A DNA stretch of 64,000 nucleotides from an uncultured Spirochaetaceae bacterium (GTDB lineage Bacteria; Spirochaetota; Spirochaetia; Sphaerochaetales; Sphaerochaetaceae): assembly GCA_944392965.1 (NCBI GenBank), contig CALXYM010000007.1, forward strand, positions 1 through 64,000, written 5' to 3'. Both the position numbers and the translations under genes were made by a program. This document shows positions 49,889 through 61,497 of the stretch, in pieces. Position 1 is the stretch's first letter. Each line of letters begins with the position of its first letter. The notes beneath the pieces were generated by a model. The model had not been told where the DNA came from. It saw only the letters and a list, made by a program, of their open reading frames with translations, and searched no databases.

Positions 49889-50830
49889 TTACTCTAAAAG
49901 TTTGAATAGTACCTTCGCATTTCCCCCGCATGCCATGGCAAGGGGACTTTCTGTTTCAAGGACGAAATCCTTTACTTTGAATTTTTCTCCACACCTCAGC
50001 ATTTTTCTGGCTTCTTTTATGCATTCCATCTCAATAGCCCCACCTCCGACTGTTGAGAATGAGTCTCTCTCCGTTACCGCCATCTCCGCTCCCTTCTCCC
50101 TTGGTCCAGAGCCTTCCTTTTCAATTATCCTGACAAGAATGAGTTTCTCTTCCTCCCTCTCAAGGTATTCCAGCATGCTATAGTCGATAGCAAGCTGTTT
50201 TTTATCCTCCCTGTACGTCTTTATTATCTCCGCTAGGATTGAGACTGCGATTTCCGCAGGGCTTTGTGCCATGATCTCAATTCCGATGGGCGCATGGACT
50301 TTTTCTAAAAGAACTCTTCCTATTCCTCTCTTTTCCAGATTGGAATAGGTGAGGGCTATCTTTTTTTTGCTTCCTATCATACCTACATATCTTGAGTTAT
50401 AGTTTTTAAGTACGTAATAAAGAGCCTCTTCATCTGCCTTATGTCCGTGGGTGAATATGAGAAAATAGGGATTTTCAAATGCGTATCTTTTTTTGAAGAT
50501 GTTGTCAAAATCATCAATGATTATCTCGGCATTAGAATAATCACCGTCTTCTAAAATGTTCTTCCTGTCGTCGAAAATGACTAAGGGAAAGTCCAGAAGG
50601 GAATCCATCTTATAGATGTTTTTCCCGATGTGCCCAAACCCGAATAGTACAAGGGTAGGCCGGAGTGCGATCACCTCTTCCGTATATAGTTCGGGCATGC
50701 TGTATCCTGCTGTTGAGAGTATAAGCTCTTCATTCTTATATATTCCCTCTTCTCCCGTTTTTAAATCAGTGATCCTCTTTACAGCTCCTTTTTCAAGGAG
50801 TTCTCTTAGTTTTCCGTAGTACTCTCTCAT
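49889..50830 (-). CDS. XdhC/CoxI-family molybdenum hydroxylase maturation factor, permuted domain order
   Basis: 313 aa. XdhC proteins bind molybdenum cofactor and help insert or sulfurate/selenate it. Here the Rossmann part comes first (LVLFGFGHIGKNIY near residue 60, VIFDDRKN, FTHGHKADEEAL, GMIGSKKK). The XdhC_CoxI part comes last (VRIIEKEGSGPREKGAEMAV, TVGGGAIEMECIKEA, AMACGGNAKVLF). The usual order is the reverse. The start overlaps the end of the class V aminotransferase by 4 bp. Its place in the selenium module suggests service to the hydroxylases at 35819-42845. Confidence 0.82.
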   Translation of the reverse strand: MREYYGKLRELLEKGAVKRITDLKTGEEGIYKNEELILSTAGYSMPELYTEEVIALRPTLVLFGFGHIGKNIYKMDSLLDFPLVIFDDRKNILEDGDYSNAEIIIDDFDNIFKKRYAFENPYFLIFTHGHKADEEALYYVLKNYNSRYVGMIGSKKKIALTYSNLEKRGIGRVLLEKVHAPIGIEIMAQSPAEIAVSILAEIIKTYREDKKQLAIDYSMLEYLEREEEKLILVRIIEKEGSGPREKGAEMAVTERDSFSTVGGGAIEMECIKEARKMLRCGEKFKVKDFVLETESPLAMACGGNAKVLFKLLE

Positions 50831-51954
50831 CTTACTTCCTCTTTTAATGCAGCCAGAGTCTCTTCTATCTCATCTTTTGTCGTGAACGGTCCTGGAGATA
50901 ACCTGATGGTCCCTTCCGGATATGTACCTATCGCCTTATGAGCCGCAGGTGCGCAGTGCAGGCCAACCCTCGTCTCTATGCCATGCTTTTGCAACAGGTT
51001 CTCTGCTAAAAGTGCGTTATCCATCTTCTCTGTAGTTATGCTTATCACGGAGTTCCGATCTTCTTTCTTTTCTCCATGTACTGTAATACCATTGATTCTA
51101 AGTAATCCTTGAAGGAGGAGGGTAGTGTTATCCTTCTCTCTTTTTCTGAGCTCTTCAAGATTATTCATGACATATTCAACGCTCTCGTAAAGGCCGTAGA
51201 AGCCAGGAAGATTCCTTGTTCCCGCTTCGAACTTATCTGGAAAGAGCTCTGGCTGGATGAATGAGTCCGAAAGGCTTCCCGTTCCTCCCGTATAGAGAGG
51301 CTCAATGCGTTCAGCAAAAGACCTCTCTAATGCAAAACCTCCCGTTCCTTCAGGCCCAAGCAATCCTTTATGACCTGAAAAACATACTGCGCTTATCCCC
51401 CTCTCATCCATTTTTACCTCTACAAAAGGGAGTGCCTGAGCCGTATCTATTATCAGCGGAAGTTGTAGGTCCCGTGCAATGGATGCAAGCTTTTCAACAT
51501 CCTCGTTTACGCCTGTTACATTTGAGGAGATTGAGAAGATTATCGCTTTCGTGTCATTTCGTTTAAGTTTTCTTAGTTCATCAAGATTGTTTCTGCCCGT
51601 TTTATCCGTTTTAGGAGTGGAGTACTCTAAGCCGAGTGAACATAGCGTTCTCATTACAGCGTTATGCTCCGTTGATGATGTTATGACATGGTCTCCTGCC
51701 TTAAGAAAGCCACGGATGACGGTATTTATTGACTCAGTTAGACCCGAGTTCAAAAATACGGTATCTTCTCCCTCGTGTCCAATGAGGCGTGCTATATCCA
51801 TTCTCAGTGTTATGAGGTCATTGACAGTCTCATATCCTTTTTCACTGTTCGTCCTGTTTATGTTTCTTCCATTCTCTTTTAGAAAGGAATAGACTCTTTC
51901 TGCGACTTTCGGCGCTTTAGGAAAACTGGTGGATGCATTGTCTAGGTAAATCAT
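50827..51954 (-). CDS. Class V aminotransferase, cysteine desulfurase/selenocysteine-lyase-like
   Basis: 375 aa. IYLDNASTSFPKAPKV start, PLP lysine in CFSGHKGLLGPEGTGG, and a catalytic Cys in RVGLHCAPAAHKAIGT, the short-loop SufS/CsdB style. It is distinct from NifS at 33391. Genes of this type accompany yedE and selD in selenium-using anaerobes, so it may mobilise selenium or sulfur for cofactor maturation. TATAAT lies 6 bases before the ATG; the intervening GAGGAT is too close to act as a normal Shine-Dalgarno. Confidence 0.86.
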   Translation of the reverse strand: MIYLDNASTSFPKAPKVAERVYSFLKENGRNINRTNSEKGYETVNDLITLRMDIARLIGHEGEDTVFLNSGLTESINTVIRGFLKAGDHVITSSTEHNAVMRTLCSLGLEYSTPKTDKTGRNNLDELRKLKRNDTKAIIFSISSNVTGVNEDVEKLASIARDLQLPLIIDTAQALPFVEVKMDERGISAVCFSGHKGLLGPEGTGGFALERSFAERIEPLYTGGTGSLSDSFIQPELFPDKFEAGTRNLPGFYGLYESVEYVMNNLEELRKREKDNTTLLLQGLLRINGITVHGEKKEDRNSVISITTEKMDNALLAENLLQKHGIETRVGLHCAPAAHKAIGTYPEGTIRLSPGPFTTKDEIEETLAALKEEVR

Positions 51955-51960
51955 ATCCTC

Positions 51961-52007
51961 ATTATAACGTTTTTTTCATTGTAATTGGAAAAACATAATG
52001 GTAAGAT
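51961..52007. promoter_or_regulatory. Divergent leaderless promoters of the selenium module
   Basis: Minus strand: TATAAT (51961-51966), 6 bases before the aminotransferase ATG at 51954. Plus strand: TTGTAA (51979-51984), 17 bp, TGG-TAAGAT (hexamer at 52002-52007), 6 bases, yedE ATG at 52014. Both arms of the module start within 59 bp, so they could be controlled together. Confidence 0.65.
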
Positions 52008-52013
52008 GTTCTC

Positions 52014-53084
52014 ATGATTGCTTCTATAAAGGAAAAACGGAATTTAGCTGTCACAGGAGCCCTGATAGGTATTATCGCGGTTGTTCTGATGCATTTTGGG
52101 AATCCGGGAAACATGGGATTCTGTATCGCCTGTTTCATCCGTGATATCGCAGGATCTTTGAATCTGCATAACGCTTCAGCAGTGCAGTATATGAGGCCGG
52201 AGATAATAGGAATCGTACTGGGCTCTTTTATCATCAGTGTGATGAAAGGGGAGTTTAAGCCCCGTTCAGGAAGCAGCCCGATAATACGGTTCATGCTTGG
52301 TTTTTTCATGATGGTCGGAGCTCTCGTGTTCCTTGGCTGTCCACTTCGGATGGTACTCCGTCTTGCCGCAGGGGATCTTAACGCTCTTGTCGGACTTTTC
52401 GGGTTTATCGCAGGAATTGGAATCGGGGCGTTCTTCTTGAATAACGGTTTCTCCTTAGGCCGTGCGAGAACAGGTGATAGAATAGAAGGAGTGGCATTCC
52501 CGTTTATCAACATTGTCCTGCTCTTCATCCTTCTTTTCTTTCCAACCCTTTTGAAATTCAGTGAGAGTGGACCGGGAAGCATGCATGCCCCTGTATTCCT
52601 CTCTCTCTTACTGGCTCTGGTAGTAGGAGCTGCGGCCCAGCGTACGAGGCTTTGCATGGCAGGGGGTATAAGGGATATCTTCCTTATCAAGGATTTCACG
52701 CTCATTACAGGATTCGTATTCATCTTCCTTGCGGCATTGATTGGTAATCTCATAATAGGTAATTTTCACCTTGGATTTGCAGATCAGAGCATTGCCCATG
52801 ATAAGCACCTCTGGAATTTCTTATCGATGACTCTCGTCGGCCTTACTGCGGCGATGCTTGGAGGTTGTCCTCTAAGACAGCTTATTCTCGCAGGAGAGGG
52901 AAACAGTGACAGTGCTGTCACCGTTCTTGGCATGGTGCTTGGAGCCGCGTTCAGCCATAATGCAGGAGCGGCAGCCTCTGCAGGAACAGGTCCTGCTTTA
53001 ATTGGCAAGGTAAGCGTTGTTGTCGGCATAGTGTTCTGTATCGCTCTATCAGTGATGATTACGAAGAAAAGGAGAGCAGAATGA
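52014..53084 (+). CDS. yedE: YedE-family putative selenium transporter
   Basis: 356 aa integral membrane protein with about ten helices. Two YeeE/YedE-type repeats carry conserved Cys motifs: GFCIACFIRD, VFLGCPLRMVLRLAAGD, RTRLCMAGGIRDIFL, MLGGCPLRQLILAGEGN. This pattern matches the selenium-metabolism YedE family. Probably imports a selenium or sulfur species. First gene of a five-gene operon; ATGA overlap with yedF. Confidence 0.92.
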   Translation: MIASIKEKRNLAVTGALIGIIAVVLMHFGNPGNMGFCIACFIRDIAGSLNLHNASAVQYMRPEIIGIVLGSFIISVMKGEFKPRSGSSPIIRFMLGFFMMVGALVFLGCPLRMVLRLAAGDLNALVGLFGFIAGIGIGAFFLNNGFSLGRARTGDRIEGVAFPFINIVLLFILLFFPTLLKFSESGPGSMHAPVFLSLLLALVVGAAAQRTRLCMAGGIRDIFLIKDFTLITGFVFIFLAALIGNLIIGNFHLGFADQSIAHDKHLWNFLSMTLVGLTAAMLGGCPLRQLILAGEGNSDSAVTVLGMVLGAAFSHNAGAAASAGTGPALIGKVSVVVGIVFCIALSVMITKKRRAE

Positions 53085-53287
53085 AAGAAGTTGATGCTAT
53101 GGGATTAAGTTGCCCGGAACCGGTTATCATGGCGAAGAGAGCTTTGAAGGACAGTCCCGATGGAATAGATATTCGTGTAGATAATGTGGCAAGCAAGGAA
53201 AACGTCTCAAGATATCTTGAGGCTATGGGATGCAAGGTTGATATAGTGGAAGGAAAGGGAGAATGGCTGATAAAGGGGAGGAGGTAG
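53081..53287 (+). CDS. yedF: YedF/TusA-like sulfur/selenium carrier
   Basis: 68 aa single-domain TusA fold: VDAMGLSCPEPVIMAKRAL with the conserved CPxP, whose Cys can carry persulfide or perselenide. It usually acts downstream of a transporter or desulfurase. Overlaps yedE by 4 bp; its stop TAG overlaps the next start (TAGTG). Confidence 0.9.
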   Translation: MKEVDAMGLSCPEPVIMAKRALKDSPDGIDIRVDNVASKENVSRYLEAMGCKVDIVEGKGEWLIKGRR

Positions 53288-53493
53288 TGATAACATTCTT
53301 CTCCCATTATGAGGCAGTGAAAGCAAAGAGGATCATCGGAGAGGGAACGCTAATTCCCGTTCCCCGTGCCCTCTCCTCCTCGTGTGGGACGGCACTCTCT
53401 GTCAGGAGAGATGTTTTCATGTCTAATCATGCCTTTACATATGATAGGGCATATCTGAGAAAGGAGGAGGGATGGTCCGTCTTACAAGTCTAG
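53287..53493 (+). CDS. DUF3343 putative Se/S carrier protein
   Basis: 68 aa from the GTG at 53287, which has GGGGAGGAGG just upstream and forms TAGTG with the yedF stop. An ATG at 53263 would add eight residues and lacks a site. TFFSHYEAVKAKRI, then LIPVPRALSSSCGTAL with a conserved Cys, are the DUF3343 signature. The family is linked with selenium genes. Overlaps selD by 22 bp. Confidence 0.85.
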   Translation: MITFFSHYEAVKAKRIIGEGTLIPVPRALSSSCGTALSVRRDVFMSNHAFTYDRAYLRKEEGWSVLQV

Positions 53494-54497
53494 TTAAAAC
53501 ATCAGGTTGTGCTGCAAAGCTCAGCCCGAAGGATCTCGAAAGGGTTCTTTCTGAGATCCCGATTATGGAATCTGATGATCTTCTTGAGGGATTTGAACAC
53601 TCTGATGATGCCCTTGTCTATGATATGCGTGATGGCAGGGTCCTGATAGAAACTGTTGATTTCTTTCCTCCCATGGTTGATGATCCTTTCACATTTGGTC
53701 AGATCGCTGCAGCCAATGCCCTTTCCGATATTTATGCAATGGGAGCAGAGCCCGTTCTTGCTATGAACCTCATGTGTTTTCCCCATTGCTTGGATCTCTC
53801 TGTTATGAAGGAGATAATTCTTGGTGGAATGTCGAAGGTGAGAGAGGCGGGAGCTGTAATTGCAGGAGGGCATACGATCAGTGACAGGGAGCCCAAGTAT
53901 GGACTTTCTGTGACAGGATTCTCCAAAAAAGAGGATGTCTGGTATAACAGGGGACTCAGGACGGGTGATAAGCTCATTCTTACAAAGAAGATAGGCGTGG
54001 GAATAATAAATACTGCAAATAAGGTTGATGAAGCAGATGAGGAGAGCGTAAGAGAGGCTGTTGAGTCAATGACCACGCTTAATAAGATGGCGAGGGATAA
54101 TGCCCGTACGCTTTCTGTTCATGCTGCGACGGATGTTACTGGATTCTCCCTTCTTGGACATCTTAGAGAGATGGCTAAAGCTTCAGAAAAGACTGTCGTA
54201 CTGCATTACGACTGGGTTCCTCAAATACAGGGTGCTTTGGAACTAGCACGCTTTGGGTTCCTCCCTGAAGGTGCATATAACAACAGGGATTTCATCGCTC
54301 CAGATGTTGATTTCTCCCCAAAGGTGAAAAGGGAAGAGGAAGATATTCTCTTTGATCCTCAGACCTCGGGAGGACTTCTTCTTGCCCTTAGTGCAGAGGA
54401 TGCGGATGAGTTTTTGAAAAGAATGAGAGGAACTCCAGCTGCCATAGTAGGAGAAGTCTCTGAGCCTGATGATAAACTGATAAAAGTCATCAGGTGA
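53472..54497 (+). CDS. selD: Selenide, water dikinase
   Basis: 341 aa. SelD makes selenophosphate from selenide and ATP. LVKTSGCAAKL carries the catalytic position as Cys, not selenocysteine, with the nearby Lys. GQIAAANALSDIYAMGAEP, GGHTISDREPKYGLSVTG and LFDPQTSGGLL are the ATP/metal motifs. AAGGAGGAGGG site before the ATG. No selA, selB or selenocysteine tRNA is seen here, so selenophosphate may serve the hydroxylase cofactor. Confidence 0.95.
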   Translation: MVRLTSLVKTSGCAAKLSPKDLERVLSEIPIMESDDLLEGFEHSDDALVYDMRDGRVLIETVDFFPPMVDDPFTFGQIAAANALSDIYAMGAEPVLAMNLMCFPHCLDLSVMKEIILGGMSKVREAGAVIAGGHTISDREPKYGLSVTGFSKKEDVWYNRGLRTGDKLILTKKIGVGIINTANKVDEADEESVREAVESMTTLNKMARDNARTLSVHAATDVTGFSLLGHLREMAKASEKTVVLHYDWVPQIQGALELARFGFLPEGAYNNRDFIAPDVDFSPKVKREEEDILFDPQTSGGLLLALSAEDADEFLKRMRGTPAAIVGEVSEPDDKLIKVIR

Positions 54498-55316: not shown

Positions 55317-58300
55317 ATGGATAAGAGAAAATCTAGAACTTATATCGCTATGGCAGCTGACATAAGCGAGAGGCTAGGAGATAGGGAGTATTCTGTTGGT
55401 TTTGATTTGGGAGTAGGCTCAACAGGGGTCGCTGTTGTCGCTTTGGAGCCAGATGAGCAAGGTGATTTATATCCAACAGATCTGATTCATGCTACAAGCC
55501 GTATCTTTCCCTCATCCAAAGGTGCCGAAGAGCGAAGGATGAAACGAGGACAGAGGAATGCGATCCGGCATAAGTCTCACCGGATGAGATGGCTTTGGAA
55601 GGTTCTAAGTGAAAAGGATTTAATGCTTCCTTTTTCAGATGAGGAAGTATCAGATCCTGCACGACTTCGCTTTGATGATGAGGAAATCAGGAAAGATCCA
55701 TATTCTCTCCGTGTGAAAGGTTTAAGAGAACAACTTACATTACATGAGCTTGGCATAGCTCTTTACCATATAGCAGGACATCGGGGCTCCTCATCGATTC
55801 GAACATTTTTGGATTCTGGTGATTTAAAAGATGATGAGAAAGCTAAGATGAGGACAACGGAGGAGATAAGCAAGACTTATGGCCTGAACACTTACATAGA
55901 AGTTCTATATGAATCGAGAAGAATAAATAACACCAATTTCAGAAACAGTTTGAACGCCAGTGAGAAAACACCTCTTCCTACAAGGGATATCATAGAGAAT
56001 GAAGTTGAGGTGCTTCTTGAGAAGCAGAAGAAGTTTTATCCTGATGTTCTAAGTGATGAATATGTTCAGAAAATAAAGGATGTGATGTTTTATGAAAATG
56101 AGAAGCTGGTTCCAGAAGCGGGTAATTGTCCTTACTTCCCGAATGAGAAAAAACTACCAAGAGTTGCTTTCATAAATGAGGAAAGGAGGATATGGGAAGC
56201 GGTTAATAATATCCGGATAAAAATCGAGATTCAGGAAGAGAACCGATTTAAGACAATCTCTGAACCCTTGTCGGGAGAAAAGAAGAAAATACTGTTTGAT
56301 TTCCTGCGTAGTGGAAAGGATCTGACAGTGACTGAGTTCAAGAGGTTGTTTTCTGAATATAAGAATTCCTCAGAAATAAGGCTGCAGGGTACAACGAAAG
56401 GTTCCCAACAGATAAAAGGATTTAGGTTCAAAGAATTAGAGGATTCGCCATGGTTTTCCTCTCTTTCTGAAAATGAGAGACTACATTTCCTGGAGTGTTA
56501 TATCAACTGTCCGGATGATAAGAAGTTGAAAGATATTTTGAAGAGAGAGTTTTGCCTATCTGATGAGAATGTTCAGGAGGCTCTTCATATGAAACTCGTA
56601 GAAGGTTATGCTCCTGTAGGGCTTTCTGCGATGAAAATAATTCTGAATTATATCGTAGAGGAGGGGATAAGCTATCAGGAAGCGGAGGCAAAAGCAGTAG
56701 AAGAAGGAAGGCTTGCATGCTTTACATCTGATATCGTATTCGATTCTCTTCCTTATTATGGGATGGTTATTCCTGCCAGTACTCAGGCCCTTATGGGAAA
56801 AGCCTGGCACTCTTCTTTTGTTGAAAAGAGGGCAAGGAAGAGTTTTACTTATCCTGAGACAAATAGAGATGAGGAGAAGTATGGGAGAATAGCTAATCCT
56901 GTAGTTCATCAGTGTTTGAATGAACTAAGAAAACTGATTAATGAACTTATTGAAATACTCGGTAAGAAACCTAAGACTATCTGCGTGGAACTCTCTAGAG
57001 ATCTCAAAGTCGGACAGGATAAAAGGGATGAGATAAACAGGAGGAATAATGAGAAGGAGCGGGAGAATAAGCGAATTTTTGATACTTACTGCAAGCCTAA
57101 CAATCTTTCTAAATCATATATAAAGAAATTCCGTCTTTACGAAGAACAGAAGGAAAAATGCCCATACTGTCTTAGGTCGATAAGTGTAAATGACATCATA
57201 ACCAATAATGTTGATATCGATCATATTTTCCCTAAAGAGGATACGGGTGATTCTTCTTATGATAACCTGGTACTTGCTCATAAAACCTGCAATGAGACGA
57301 AAAAAGTTAAGAAGATTCCATATGTTGCATATGGCTCAGAGCAGAGATTATGGTCAAATATTGAACAGTATCTTTCTAGTACGACAATGTCTGTCAGAAA
57401 ACGCCATAAGTTTAACATTACAGAGGAGGAATACGAGAAATACCTTGAGCAGCAGTCTTTTTTGCCTCGATTTAATCCCGATAACGCGTATATAGCTAGA
57501 GTCGCTTGCCAATACCTGCAATCTCTCTATCCAAAAGAAGAGAAGAGAAAAGCTGTAAGGACGATAAGAGGTCATGAGACAGCTCTTTTGCGTCGGGCGT
57601 GGAAACTGAATGATATAACCAATGGTCTTGCAGAATCCATCGGATTGATAAGAGAAGATGAGTATACCGATGAGAAAAATCGTACGGATAATCGACATCA
57701 CGCATTGGATGCGATAGTTGCTGCTTATTTTACTCAGAATTATGCTACGGTAATTCAGACAGCTGCTTCAAGAGGCATTAAAACTGATGTCATACTCAAG
57801 CGTCTGCCGATTCCTAAATACTATAGACAGGACAAGGAACTTGCAAAACTTGAACAGGTCAGGGAGTTCAGTTCTTATATAAGAAACTTCATGGAAACAA
57901 AGACATTCGTCTCGCGAAAACAGGTGACAAGTAGAAATGGCGAACTCGTTAAGGATACCCAGTATTCCGTACTTGCTAGAAGCAAGGATGACGTTATCTT
58001 ATGTACGAAAAAATCCATTAAGGATATAGGTGCTTCTTCCGTTCATGGGGATAAGAGGGGTTCCTTAGAGTTTGCACTTAACAAAGACTTTAAACTACCT
58101 ACATTTCTTACGGAGACAGCGAGTAAAAACATAACCGTTCTTCAGGAGAATAATAAAAAGAAATTCAAGGATATTATTGCTTGTTTGGAGAGAGCAAGGG
58201 AAAGCCTTGAGGAAAGCAATAAGCAGAGGATATCAAGTGGAAAGAAAGCAAAACAGATAACGGAAAAGAATATACTGGCTATCGCCTGTGAAATGGTCGG

Positions 58301-58829
58301 AGGTGTGTATTATCAGATTAGCAATCAGAAAGCTAATAAGTTGTACATTAGAAATACGACAAATTCCGCATTTGATACGGGAGATAATTTCAGCCTTGAT
58401 CTTTATCTGGGGGAGAAAGAAAAGGTTCAAGGAGAGGTTATAAGAAAGATTAACGCGATGAAAAAGGATTATGTTCCTGAATATAAGCAAAAAGGTTTTA
58501 CACTGCTGGAAAGGATATATCCCAAGGATGTTCTGGAAATAGATTTGATTTCTGCAGCAGGAAGCAGTAAGAAGGCTTTATCGCAGAGTATTGTATCTCC
58601 TAATGCTCCAGAAGGCAGGACTTTTGTCGTAGTAGATACTTTTACGGAAATAGGAAAAACAATTCAGATTTGGTATACGCCTTTATCTATTTCAAACGAA
58701 GTCGTTAAGTCGTCTTTTTGTGTTTCTGGCATAGAAAACATGAACGTACGTAAGGTTGTTTTAAGCAGTCTGGGCTTAGTTGTTTATAGATCAAGATTTA
58801 TAAAAGGAGCAGGAGCGTGTGGAGATTGA
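55317..58829 (+). CDS. cas9: Cas9 endonuclease, type II-C
   Basis: 1170 aa. RuvC-I SVGFDLGVGSTGVAVV (Asp30); arginine-rich bridge helix RRMKRGQRNAIRHKSHRMRW; RuvC-II KTICVELSRDLKVG; HNH domain with CPYC and VDIDHIFPKEDTGD (catalytic His636), then YDNLVLAHKTCNETK; RuvC-III DNRHHALDAIVAAY (Asp798). All nuclease residues are present, so it should be active. No csn2 or cas4 gene, and cas9-cas1-cas2 order, define subtype II-C. Length is between the compact (~1000 aa) and long forms. PAM-recognition sequence cannot be predicted. It overlaps cas1 by 13 bp. Confidence 0.96.
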   Translation: MDKRKSRTYIAMAADISERLGDREYSVGFDLGVGSTGVAVVALEPDEQGDLYPTDLIHATSRIFPSSKGAEERRMKRGQRNAIRHKSHRMRWLWKVLSEKDLMLPFSDEEVSDPARLRFDDEEIRKDPYSLRVKGLREQLTLHELGIALYHIAGHRGSSSIRTFLDSGDLKDDEKAKMRTTEEISKTYGLNTYIEVLYESRRINNTNFRNSLNASEKTPLPTRDIIENEVEVLLEKQKKFYPDVLSDEYVQKIKDVMFYENEKLVPEAGNCPYFPNEKKLPRVAFINEERRIWEAVNNIRIKIEIQEENRFKTISEPLSGEKKKILFDFLRSGKDLTVTEFKRLFSEYKNSSEIRLQGTTKGSQQIKGFRFKELEDSPWFSSLSENERLHFLECYINCPDDKKLKDILKREFCLSDENVQEALHMKLVEGYAPVGLSAMKIILNYIVEEGISYQEAEAKAVEEGRLACFTSDIVFDSLPYYGMVIPASTQALMGKAWHSSFVEKRARKSFTYPETNRDEEKYGRIANPVVHQCLNELRKLINELIEILGKKPKTICVELSRDLKVGQDKRDEINRRNNEKERENKRIFDTYCKPNNLSKSYIKKFRLYEEQKEKCPYCLRSISVNDIITNNVDIDHIFPKEDTGDSSYDNLVLAHKTCNETKKVKKIPYVAYGSEQRLWSNIEQYLSSTTMSVRKRHKFNITEEEYEKYLEQQSFLPRFNPDNAYIARVACQYLQSLYPKEEKRKAVRTIRGHETALLRRAWKLNDITNGLAESIGLIREDEYTDEKNRTDNRHHALDAIVAAYFTQNYATVIQTAASRGIKTDVILKRLPIPKYYRQDKELAKLEQVREFSSYIRNFMETKTFVSRKQVTSRNGELVKDTQYSVLARSKDDVILCTKKSIKDIGASSVHGDKRGSLEFALNKDFKLPTFLTETASKNITVLQENNKKKFKDIIACLERARESLEESNKQRISSGKKAKQITEKNILAIACEMVGGVYYQISNQKANKLYIRNTTNSAFDTGDNFSLDLYLGEKEKVQGEVIRKINAMKKDYVPEYKQKGFTLLERIYPKDVLEIDLISAAGSSKKALSQSIVSPNAPEGRTFVVVDTFTEIGKTIQIWYTPLSISNEVVKSSFCVSGIENMNVRKVVLSSLGLVVYRSRFIKGAGACGD

Positions 58830-59713
58830 TTGATATCGCAGGAGACGGTTATTATTTCCATGTTAAGAATAAAAATATATGCATTGAGAAAGATGGAAAG
58901 AAGATAGAATCCGTTGCTTTTGCCGATATCAATTCAATCATTGTTCATGGTAAGCAGAACAGTTATTCAGAAGAGTTTCTTGCCTGTTGCGCATCTTATT
59001 CCATTCCATTTACAATCTGTGATGAGAAACATATGCCTTTGGGAATGCTTCTTCCTTGGTATCAGCATACAGAGTCTTCAATTCGACAGGAAAAGCAGAT
59101 AAATGCAAAATTGCCGAAGAAGAAGCAGGTATGGCAGAAAATAATAAAAGCAAAAGTTTTAAATCAGGCAAAACTTCTACAGTTAACCGATAATTATGAA
59201 GAATCCAAGGTACTGGAGGTCATGAGCAGCCATATTCTTTCTGGAGATAGCACAAATATAGAGGCTCAGGCAGCAAGAACGTATTTCCCCGCATTATTTG
59301 GTACATCTTTTATACGGCAGGATGAAGAGGAGGGTATAAATGCTCTTTTAAATTATGGCTATACGATTGCACGGTCAATGGTTGCGAGAGCTGTCGTCGG
59401 AACTGGTCTTTGTCCATCAATAAGTATATTTCATTCTAATAGGGTGAATCCGTTCGCTCTTTGTGATGATCTTGTTGAACCAATTAGACCTTTCATCGAT
59501 AAAACGGTACAAGAACTTTCAAAAGAAAAGGAATACATTTGTCTTTCTCCCGAAGTGAAGAAACAGCTTATCTCGATAATAACCTGTCCTGTGAGAATTT
59601 TTAACATGGATTATGAACTGACGAAAGCGATAGAGATCTATGTTTACAGTTACTATAGATTTATTTCAGGGGAGAGAAGTGATATCGAATATCCTAAGTT
59701 CAGAGGAGAATAA
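58817..59713 (+). CDS. cas1: Cas1 integrase
   Basis: 298 aa, the metal-dependent integrase that inserts new spacers together with Cas2. Conserved metal ligands: Glu in TNIEAQAARTYFPALFG, His in IFHSNRVNPFALCDDLVEPIRP, and the acidic pair after it. The GTG start at 58817 overlaps the cas9 end by 13 bp; GGAGCAGGAGC lies upstream. Complete. Confidence 0.95.
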   Translation: MWRLIDIAGDGYYFHVKNKNICIEKDGKKIESVAFADINSIIVHGKQNSYSEEFLACCASYSIPFTICDEKHMPLGMLLPWYQHTESSIRQEKQINAKLPKKKQVWQKIIKAKVLNQAKLLQLTDNYEESKVLEVMSSHILSGDSTNIEAQAARTYFPALFGTSFIRQDEEEGINALLNYGYTIARSMVARAVVGTGLCPSISIFHSNRVNPFALCDDLVEPIRPFIDKTVQELSKEKEYICLSPEVKKQLISIITCPVRIFNMDYELTKAIEIYVYSYYRFISGERSDIEYPKFRGE

Positions 59714-60042
59714 TGGCTGTAGGAGCATATGAGGCGGTGTGGTTATTTGTAGGATTTGATTTGCCGACATTGACTAATGAGGATAGGAAAAGAGCCAATA
59801 GATTCAGGAATGATTTATTAGACTTAGGTTTTAGAATGTTCCAGTTATCATTTTATTCTTATTATTTTACTTCTAAAGCACAAGCTGATACAGTTGCTTC
59901 CCGGATAGAGCGGTTAGTCCCCCAAAATGGAAGTGTCTCCATATTTTATATAACGGATAAACAATTCAGTATGATAAGAACATTTTACGGAGGAAAAGTA
60001 AAACAGATAGAGGAGCCCGAACAAGGATTGTTGTTTTCATAA
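59713..60042 (+). CDS. cas2: Cas2
   Basis: 109 aa, structural partner of Cas1 in spacer acquisition. WLFVGFDLPTLTNEDRK carries the beta1 Asp motif, and FRMFQLSFYSYYF and SVSIFYITDKQF complete the ferredoxin-like fold. TAATG overlap with cas1. Its end lies at the tracrRNA terminator on the opposite strand, so the two transcripts converge. Confidence 0.94.
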   Translation: MAVGAYEAVWLFVGFDLPTLTNEDRKRANRFRNDLLDLGFRMFQLSFYSYYFTSKAQADTVASRIERLVPQNGSVSIFYITDKQFSMIRTFYGGKVKQIEEPEQGLLFS

Positions 60043-60119
60043 AAAATGAGCCTCCAAAAAGGGAGGCAGCTTACGACCAGTGTCTTATTAGAAACACTAG
60101 CTTAAATAAAGTATGTTGA
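60041..60119 (-). ncRNA. Predicted tracrRNA
   Basis: Minus strand, about 80 nt. Anti-repeat at 60087-60117 pairs with 31 consecutive bases of the crRNA repeat, using several G-U pairs. Then come a small nexus-like hairpin GAC-ACUG-GUC and a terminator hairpin GCCTCC-CTTTTT-GGAGGC with a T-run (60041-60067). A promoter TTGATT (60147-60152), 17 bp, TAATAA (60124-60129) puts the start at about 60118, just before the anti-repeat. It lies between cas2 and the array. Confidence 0.88.
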
Positions 60120-60159
60120 TTTATTATTATCATCGATACTGTTAAAAATCAAGAAAAAT

Positions 60160-60194
60160 AAAAAAAGAGGATAAAACAACATGTGCTTATCCTC
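60160..60194 (-). terminator. Terminator of the CRISPR array transcript
   Basis: On the minus strand GAGGATAA and TTATCCTC pair around 12 bases, followed by seven Ts. It would stop pre-crRNA transcripts running from the array before the tracrRNA gene. Confidence 0.75.
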
Positions 60195-60200
60195 AAATTC

Positions 60201-60257
60201 AAGGAAAAACTTTTCCTTTTAACTATTGATAAGATAAATAATAATTTTATCAATAGT
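60201..60257. repeat. Inverted repeats at the cas-proximal edge of the array
   Basis: AAGGAAAA-AC-TTTTCCTT at 60201-60218. ACTATTGATAA (60222-60232) pairs with TTATCAATAGT (60247-60257), an 11 bp perfect inverted repeat whose right arm includes the first three bases of the first CRISPR repeat. This is a candidate leader or integration-anchoring site. Confidence 0.6.
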
Positions 60258-61477
60258 ATAACATACTTTACTTAAGCTAGCATTCCCAACACGGTTAATG
60301 CAATAGTGTTTTTCCTTCTCAGTATAACATACTTTACTTAAGCTAGCATTCCCAACCAAAGGAATGCTATAGCTATTGGCGCAACGAGTATAACATACTT
60401 TACTTAAGCTAGCATTCCCAACAAGGCATTGGGTGGGTATCATCTACCCTGAAGTATAACATACTTTACTTAAGCTAGCATTCCCAACCATCACTATCGT
60501 GTGCCGTAGAACCAGGACAGTATAACATACTTTACTTAAGCTAGCATTCCCAACCATAGATGTTCTAATTACTGAATATCTATTAGTATAACATACTTTA
60601 CTTAAGCTAGCATTCCCAACGGCCTAAGCTGGGAACTTGGGTCAGTTCCCAGTATAACATACTTTACTTAAGCTAGCATTCCCAACATCAATATAATACG
60701 GACGCTGCAAATATCCAGTATAACATACTTTACTTAAGCTAGCATTCCCAACTTTTGCTCCGGAGAGTACGGAGATAAGTTCAGTATAACATACTTTACT
60801 TAAGCTAGCATTCCCAACGTCTTGTGGTGGCATATCTCCGCAACGCCGAGTATAACATACTTTACTTAAGCTAGCATTCCCAACATCCAAAAGTAGCAGT
60901 ACCTGAAACCTTATAGTATAACATACTTTACTTAAGCTAGCATTCCCAACTATACATTGTCATTTAACTACTTCCTTTTCAGTATAACATACTTTACTTA
61001 AGCTAGCATTCCCAACACCGAAGCATTGGTTACAAGTGAACTTGAAAGTATAACATACTTTACTTAAGCTAGCATTCCCAACTCAATCATGTGCGGAGTG
61101 ACTAGACAGCATAGTATAACATACTTTACTTAAGCTAGCATTCCCAACGAATCTGCAAAGACGCTAAATCCACAACAGAGTATAACATACTTTACTTAAG
61201 CTAGCATTCCCAACTCTTTCGTTGCCGCTACCTTTGTAGTCCCGAGTATAACATACTTTACTTAAGCTAGCATTCCCAACAACAGATATGCCCGTCCTGA
61301 GTATCAAGTCAGTATAACATACTTTACTTAAGCTAGCATTCCCAACTCAGACTTTCAAGTGACATTGTATCTATAAAGTATAACATATTTTACTTAAGCT
61401 AGCGTTCCCAACTTTACGGAGAAGGTCAGAATGGTGTTTCTAAGTATATCATTTTCATTTAAGTTAGTATTCTTAAT
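60255..61477 (-). CRISPR. CRISPR array, 19 repeats of 36 bp and 18 spacers of 30 bp
   Basis: Repeats occur every 66 bp from 60255. The first 17 copies (last at 61311-61346) are identical; the copy at 61377 has two changes; the last, at 61443-61477, is degenerate and one base shorter. On the crRNA strand (minus) the repeat begins GTTGGGAATGCTAGC and ends GTATGTTATACT. The tracrRNA anti-repeat fixes this direction. All 18 spacers are 30 bp and no two look alike. The repeat end contains TGT-TATACT, an extended -10 box. Protein-like reading frames through it are artefacts. Confidence 0.98.
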
Positions 61478-61497
61478 CGTAATTACGATTTTTTCTA
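61476..61497. terminator. Palindrome between the array and dinB
   Basis: AATCGTAA/TTACGATT, a 16-base palindrome followed on the plus strand by TTTTTTC. It lies just after the dinB stop and beyond the degenerate repeat. As a perfect palindrome it has little loop, so its terminator function is uncertain. Confidence 0.35.

Follow-up and report, generated by a model that had tools for sequence, protein, structure and literature searches.

The window, the whole stretch of 64,000 nt analysed here, carries a CRISPR-Cas locus made up of three cas genes on the plus strand, a tracrRNA gene and a CRISPR array. The first, cas9 (55317-58829), encodes a protein of 1170 amino acids with HNH_4 and RuvC_III domains that scored 478.8 bits against TIGR01865 (cut-off 100), and its RuvC and HNH catalytic residues D30, E558, H636, H795 and D798 are invariant among its relatives (alignment A1). 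It is followed by a cas1 of the type II, or NMENI, form (58817-59713; TIGR03639, 268.4 bits against a cut-off of 120; PADLOC Cas1_II) and by cas2 (59713-60042; TIGR01573; PADLOC Cas2_II). All three genes exceed curated cut-offs. Neither csn2, found in II-A systems, nor cas4, found in II-B, is present beside the locus, which holds cas9-cas1-cas2 only. A DUF6198 gene lies ahead of cas9, and the next gene beyond the array is that of DNA polymerase IV. Elsewhere in the window, at 49889-54497, we recognized by eye a cluster of XdhC-like, class V aminotransferase, YedE-like transporter, TusA/YedF-like and SelD-like genes, which is suggestive of selenium metabolism.

In the array (60255-61442), 18 repeats alternate with 18 spacers; the repeats are 36 nt and the spacers 30 nt long, and the crRNA is read from the minus strand. 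Seventeen of the repeats are identical and one is near-identical, and every repeat has TGTTATACT, an extended -10 element, at its 3' end. An additional, degenerate first repeat, missing from the preliminary description of this DNA, occupies 61443-61478 on the same strand. Its extended -10, TGATATACT, is retained while the part that would pair with the tracrRNA has decayed, as expected if this repeat served only as the promoter of the oldest spacer. In type II-C systems each repeat contains a promoter, new spacers join the array at its downstream end, and the first repeat becomes degenerate (PMC12080349). In the minus-strand transcript the decayed repeat comes at the upstream end (61443), from which we expect the spacer closest to the tracrRNA, at 60291-60320, to be the youngest. 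The cas gene content (cas9, cas1 and cas2, neither csn2 nor cas4), the neighbouring array and the extended -10 in each repeat together fit type II-C.

Two hairpins lie between the array and the tracrRNA promoter. The one just ahead of the promoter, read from the minus strand at 60160-60195, pairs GAGGATAA with TTATCCTC and is followed by seven Ts; it is likely to be the end of the array transcript, and was left unscored by our terminator scan, which had a loop limit of 8. The other is a near-perfect AT-rich hairpin (60218-60257) that begins inside the last repeat, within its final 3 nt, at the end of the array expected to receive new spacers. AT-rich hairpins of differing sequence were also seen at the array end in three relatives (L071, L072 and L048). 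Searches for protospacers, with the array against phages, plasmids and 139 genomes of the family and with four spacer seeds against viral contigs, gave chance-level matches or none, so that no PAM could be derived.

The tracrRNA gene is about 77 nt long and is read from the minus strand at 60041-60117, with a predicted 5' end at 60117 and a 3' end near 60041. The RNA, the reverse complement of this interval, starts AACATACTTTATTTAAGCTAGTGTTTCTAAT. Its 31-nt anti-repeat (60087-60117) pairs with nt 1-31 of the repeat GTTGGGAATGCTAGCTTAAGTAAAGTATGTTATACT with no gap and no mismatch, through 25 Watson-Crick and six G-U pairs, the latter at repeat positions 1, 4, 6, 9, 10 and 20; co-folding gave -53.0 kcal/mol. 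Outside this site, no stretch of the 64-kb window pairs with the repeat in an uninterrupted run longer than 13, and the entire 2.43-Mb assembly, searched with up to three mismatches, yielded nothing beyond this anti-repeat and the array. Downstream lies a 3-bp nexus, GAC-ACUG-GUC (60075-60084), that would form in the open, guide-bound RNA. It is followed by an intrinsic terminator whose stem, GCCTCC/GGAGGC with loop CTTTTT, spans 60050-60067 and whose T-run extends to 60041, overlapping the cas2 stop codon by 2 nt. The terminator scan found this one site against a mean of 0.3 in shuffled sequences; no tracrRNA family in Rfam was matched. The preliminary description had proposed just such an uninterrupted anti-repeat with a small GAC/GUC hairpin and a GC-rich terminator, and each of these elements was recovered in place, with no second anti-repeat in the assembly.

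The promoter named in that description, TTGATT-17-TAATAA, is present at 60124-60152 on the minus strand, with a TG extended -10, and remains putative. A consensus promoter scan returned one site against a mean of 2.0 in shuffles and chose the neighbouring AATAAT register, so this promoter taken alone is no better than chance. Its spacing is conserved in relatives, where the hexamers, read by eye wherever readable, lie at an equal distance from the anti-repeat: TTGACA-17-TATTAT in L078, TTGACA-17-TACTAT in L076 and TTGACT-17-TATGAT in G091.

tracrRNAs of the same form occur in eight relatives, seven from genomes of the same family and one from a Treponema MAG (L076). Their repeats differ, and the adjacent Cas9 proteins are about 41-61% identical over their full length or large parts of it. 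Wherever a contig shows both, the tracrRNA lies 3' of the cas genes and is read in the opposite direction. In all nine tracrRNAs AAUAAGAC closes the anti-repeat and opens the nexus, and the terminator then follows; across 14 homologues the first two nexus pairs are kept without exception, and the third is C-G in nine and A-U in L083. The covariance model R1 gave the window tracrRNA, itself among the nine sequences that make up the model, 87.2 bits, and scored strongly only these tracrRNAs in searches of 139 family genomes and of samples of 395 genomes of the class and 274 of a second family. One weak match (G017, E 0.006) appeared in the family-genome search, and larger searches yielded no further close members.

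A remnant that has decayed or fallen silent would be in keeping with the failure to find a spacer target among phages, plasmids, family genomes or viral contigs, but we regard this as very improbable: duplex, nexus, terminator and cas genes are intact, the repeats are nearly uniform and the promoter position is conserved. With anti-repeat, nexus and terminator conserved in eight relatives that have differing repeats, we conclude with high confidence that 60117-60041 (minus strand) is a complete tracrRNA gene belonging to a CRISPR-Cas9 system of type II-C, as first described, a confidence that does not extend to the closed form discussed below. Two of the earlier statements hold in part. The locus had been called self-contained: tracrRNA, cas genes and array do lie together, but host RNase III is needed and is encoded on another contig of the assembly (G000:C4). 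The tracrRNA had also been said to fix the direction of the array. It determines which strand encodes the crRNA but not, in general, how the array is arranged, because two relatives, L079 (G082) and L078 (G019), carry the array in the opposite orientation with respect to tracrRNA and cas9, and tracrRNA and array diverge.

Single-protein searches of genome and viral contigs returned no Cas9 relatives; an alignment search succeeded with genomes but not with viruses. No characterised member of this Cas9 lineage was found in the literature searched. Elusimicrobia relatives, with Cas9 proteins 37-42% identical, have a diverged version of the tracrRNA at the same place, with a nexus of GAU/AUC in L082 (by eye) and GAA/UUC in L083; the nexus is kept, with compensatory changes in some. 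One of them, a Candidatus Parendomicrobium contig (L081), carries two tandem tracrRNA-like copies on the minus strand at ~13.7-13.9 kb. The Elusimicrobia (Endomicrobium) Cas9s L080-L085 are close to the spirochaete clade, which also occurs in the Treponema MAG L076, a distribution that possibly reflects horizontal transfer between gut bacteria. Other genomes of the same genus, G036, G050 and G056 among them, have a different Cas9 of ~1400 amino acids instead, possibly of type II-A.

The anti-repeats of this clade retain G-U pairs. In the eight loci with known repeats we counted 43 departures from perfect anti-repeat complementarity, 36 of which keep a G-U pair; by our own arithmetic, about one random substitution in six would be expected to keep one. 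Among members whose repeat begins GTTGGG, positions 1, 4 and 6 form wobble pairs almost without exception. The proposal that the anti-repeat tolerates G-U pairs in place of the bulge seen in type II-A thus proved true for the clade, whose duplexes are bulge-free. Perfect anti-repeats would give duplexes computed to be ~6 to 20 kcal/mol stronger. That difference, like the strong retention of G-U in all loci, is what one would expect if the wobbles served only to prevent the anti-repeat DNA from being used like a repeat, through recombination or the integration of spacers, or to adjust how strong the duplex is, with no second fold involved. We consider this explanation possible but doubtful. When an equal number of G-U changes was placed at random given the repeat, the hairpins predicted for the free tracrRNA, described next, were weaker than the native ones (combined p 0.0016, non-redundant members); the effect is driven by G000 and G091/G102 and is absent from G013 and G059.

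Folded alone, the free tracrRNA is predicted in nine of nine cases to pair the 3' half of its anti-repeat with the nexus region, leaving the 5' end free. In all nine this closed form has an ensemble probability of 1.00 and is separated from the best structure with an open anti-repeat by 5.7-12 kcal/mol. In the window, the predicted 5' arm, GCUAGUGUUU (60092-60101), lies inside the anti-repeat and the 3' arm, AGACACUGGU (60076-60085), in the nexus region; the 16 nt at 60102-60117 would remain unpaired as an exposed toehold that could bind the repeat with -15.8 kcal/mol (all minus strand). The hairpin is stable from 20 to 42 C in these calculations, has two pairs fewer under another parameter set, and is mutually exclusive both with the nexus and with the full repeat duplex. 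Many of the conserved G-U sites are positions at which one base is able to pair either with the repeat or with the nexus.

RNAalifold on a MAFFT alignment returned the nexus and the terminator and not the closed hairpin. Since the closed arms shift register between species, we relied on swaps and shuffles. Exchanging anti-repeats between species lowered the mean stability to -7.3 from a native -10.2, with 346 of 362880 permutations as good as the native arrangement. With near-identical pairs collapsed, the values were -6.7 and -10.6 and 5 of 5040 permutations were as good; this count ranged from 2 to 56 of 5040 over segment lengths and was stable to dropping any one member. Because the clade members are related, the permutation value (~0.001) is only approximately fair. 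Shuffled anti-repeats gave a combined p of 2e-7 over seven members.

Does the closed hairpin have a function? We think that it probably does not, and that within a real tracrRNA it arises incidentally wherever a U-rich anti-repeat faces the conserved AAGAC of the nexus, self-pairing being perhaps common among free tracrRNAs. A conserved UCU/AGA supplies part of the closed pairing in most members; the Elusimicrobia tracrRNAs, to which we extended the analysis, do not clearly retain the closed form; and self-pairing is predicted for the free L096 tracrRNA and, to some extent, for those of S. pyogenes and N. meningitidis, from a set of four controls (S. pyogenes, S. aureus, N. meningitidis and C. 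jejuni). We dropped the idea that the hairpin is unique to the clade on account of the partial self-pairing in some of these controls. A pure by-product sits less easily with the swaps, which retain UCU/AGA and yet lose stability whichever species is omitted, and with the canonical spirochaete II-C tracrRNAs, eight of nine of which are not closed.

The reading under which the hairpin matters is a tentative one, and on present evidence rather unlikely: the tracrRNAs of the clade would be natural toehold-gated switches, in which the Cas9-binding nexus and the anti-repeat's 3' half stay hidden until a genuine repeat opens the hairpin via the exposed 5' part (~12-17 nt). The conserved G-U pairs would be sites with two partners, and the switch would prevent empty tracrRNA and stray cellular RNAs from being loaded into Cas9. 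We found no description of a closed tracrRNA of this kind in the literature searched, outside which most subscription papers lay, and this is weak evidence of novelty.

Judging from the anatomy of the locus and from known type II biology, the tracrRNA would be transcribed from its own predicted promoter and the pre-crRNAs would start at promoters inside each repeat. The tracrRNA would then pair with the repeat of the pre-crRNA over 31 bp, host RNase III would cleave the duplex, and the dual RNA would load and guide Cas9. Far more tentatively, the toehold model would add a step in which the free tracrRNA shuts, the 3' half of its anti-repeat pairing with the nexus; the 16 free 5' nt would catch the 3' part of a repeat, and strand displacement would free the nexus, so that Cas9 would see it only once a real repeat was bound. 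The computed net binding to the closed tracrRNA is -26 kcal/mol for the full repeat and -10 for a 20-nt repeat. As net binding stays favourable, any such gating would be mainly kinetic.

With this tracrRNA, a Cas9 lineage gains a full guide that can be put to the test. Should the closed form be real, it would explain why clade anti-repeats retain G-U pairs over perfect complementarity, form a natural barrier to noncanonical crRNAs that might serve Cas9 as a safety catch, and offer a natural model for conditional guide RNAs. The gene is otherwise complete and ordinary in kind, and the closed form is its sole feature deserving experiment.

Among known systems, Campylobacter jejuni II-C is like the window in its bulge-free duplex, its tracrRNA at the downstream end of the array and its promoter-like repeat boxes (PMC4607530, PMC8224270), but its tracrRNA has a different nexus and different 3' hairpins. 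The long tracr-L of S. pyogenes, a natural single guide, likewise combines both guide strands in one molecule (PMC11417352). It acts as a guide alone, whereas in the window RNA the downstream nexus is predicted to pair with the anti-repeat, which would block such a guide form. Canonical Treponema-type II-C tracrRNAs share with ours an anti-repeat, a nexus beginning AAG and a CGNAAAATGC-like linker past the nexus; unlike ours, they are encoded upstream of cas9, have a 6-bp nexus stem and a mostly Watson-Crick anti-repeat with a bulged U, and in eight of nine cases are not predicted to close as free RNA. The closest published system is the type II-C locus of Sphaerochaeta globus, with cas9 (1,179 aa), cas1, cas2, no fourth gene and the repeat GTTGGGGATGACCGCTGATTTTTGTTAAGATTGACC (PMC4607530, Table 1). 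This repeat is exactly that of our relative G091, whose Cas9 is 46% identical to that of the window and whose tracrRNA is of a like type; from the shared repeat, the family of the relatives is very likely Sphaerochaetaceae. Repeat and spacers differ from those of the window, the -10 of the S. globus repeat lies a few nt further in, and its tracrRNA mismatches the repeat at two positions, against none here. The S. globus lineage is already listed as II-C, and the window tracrRNA therefore adds to a known type.
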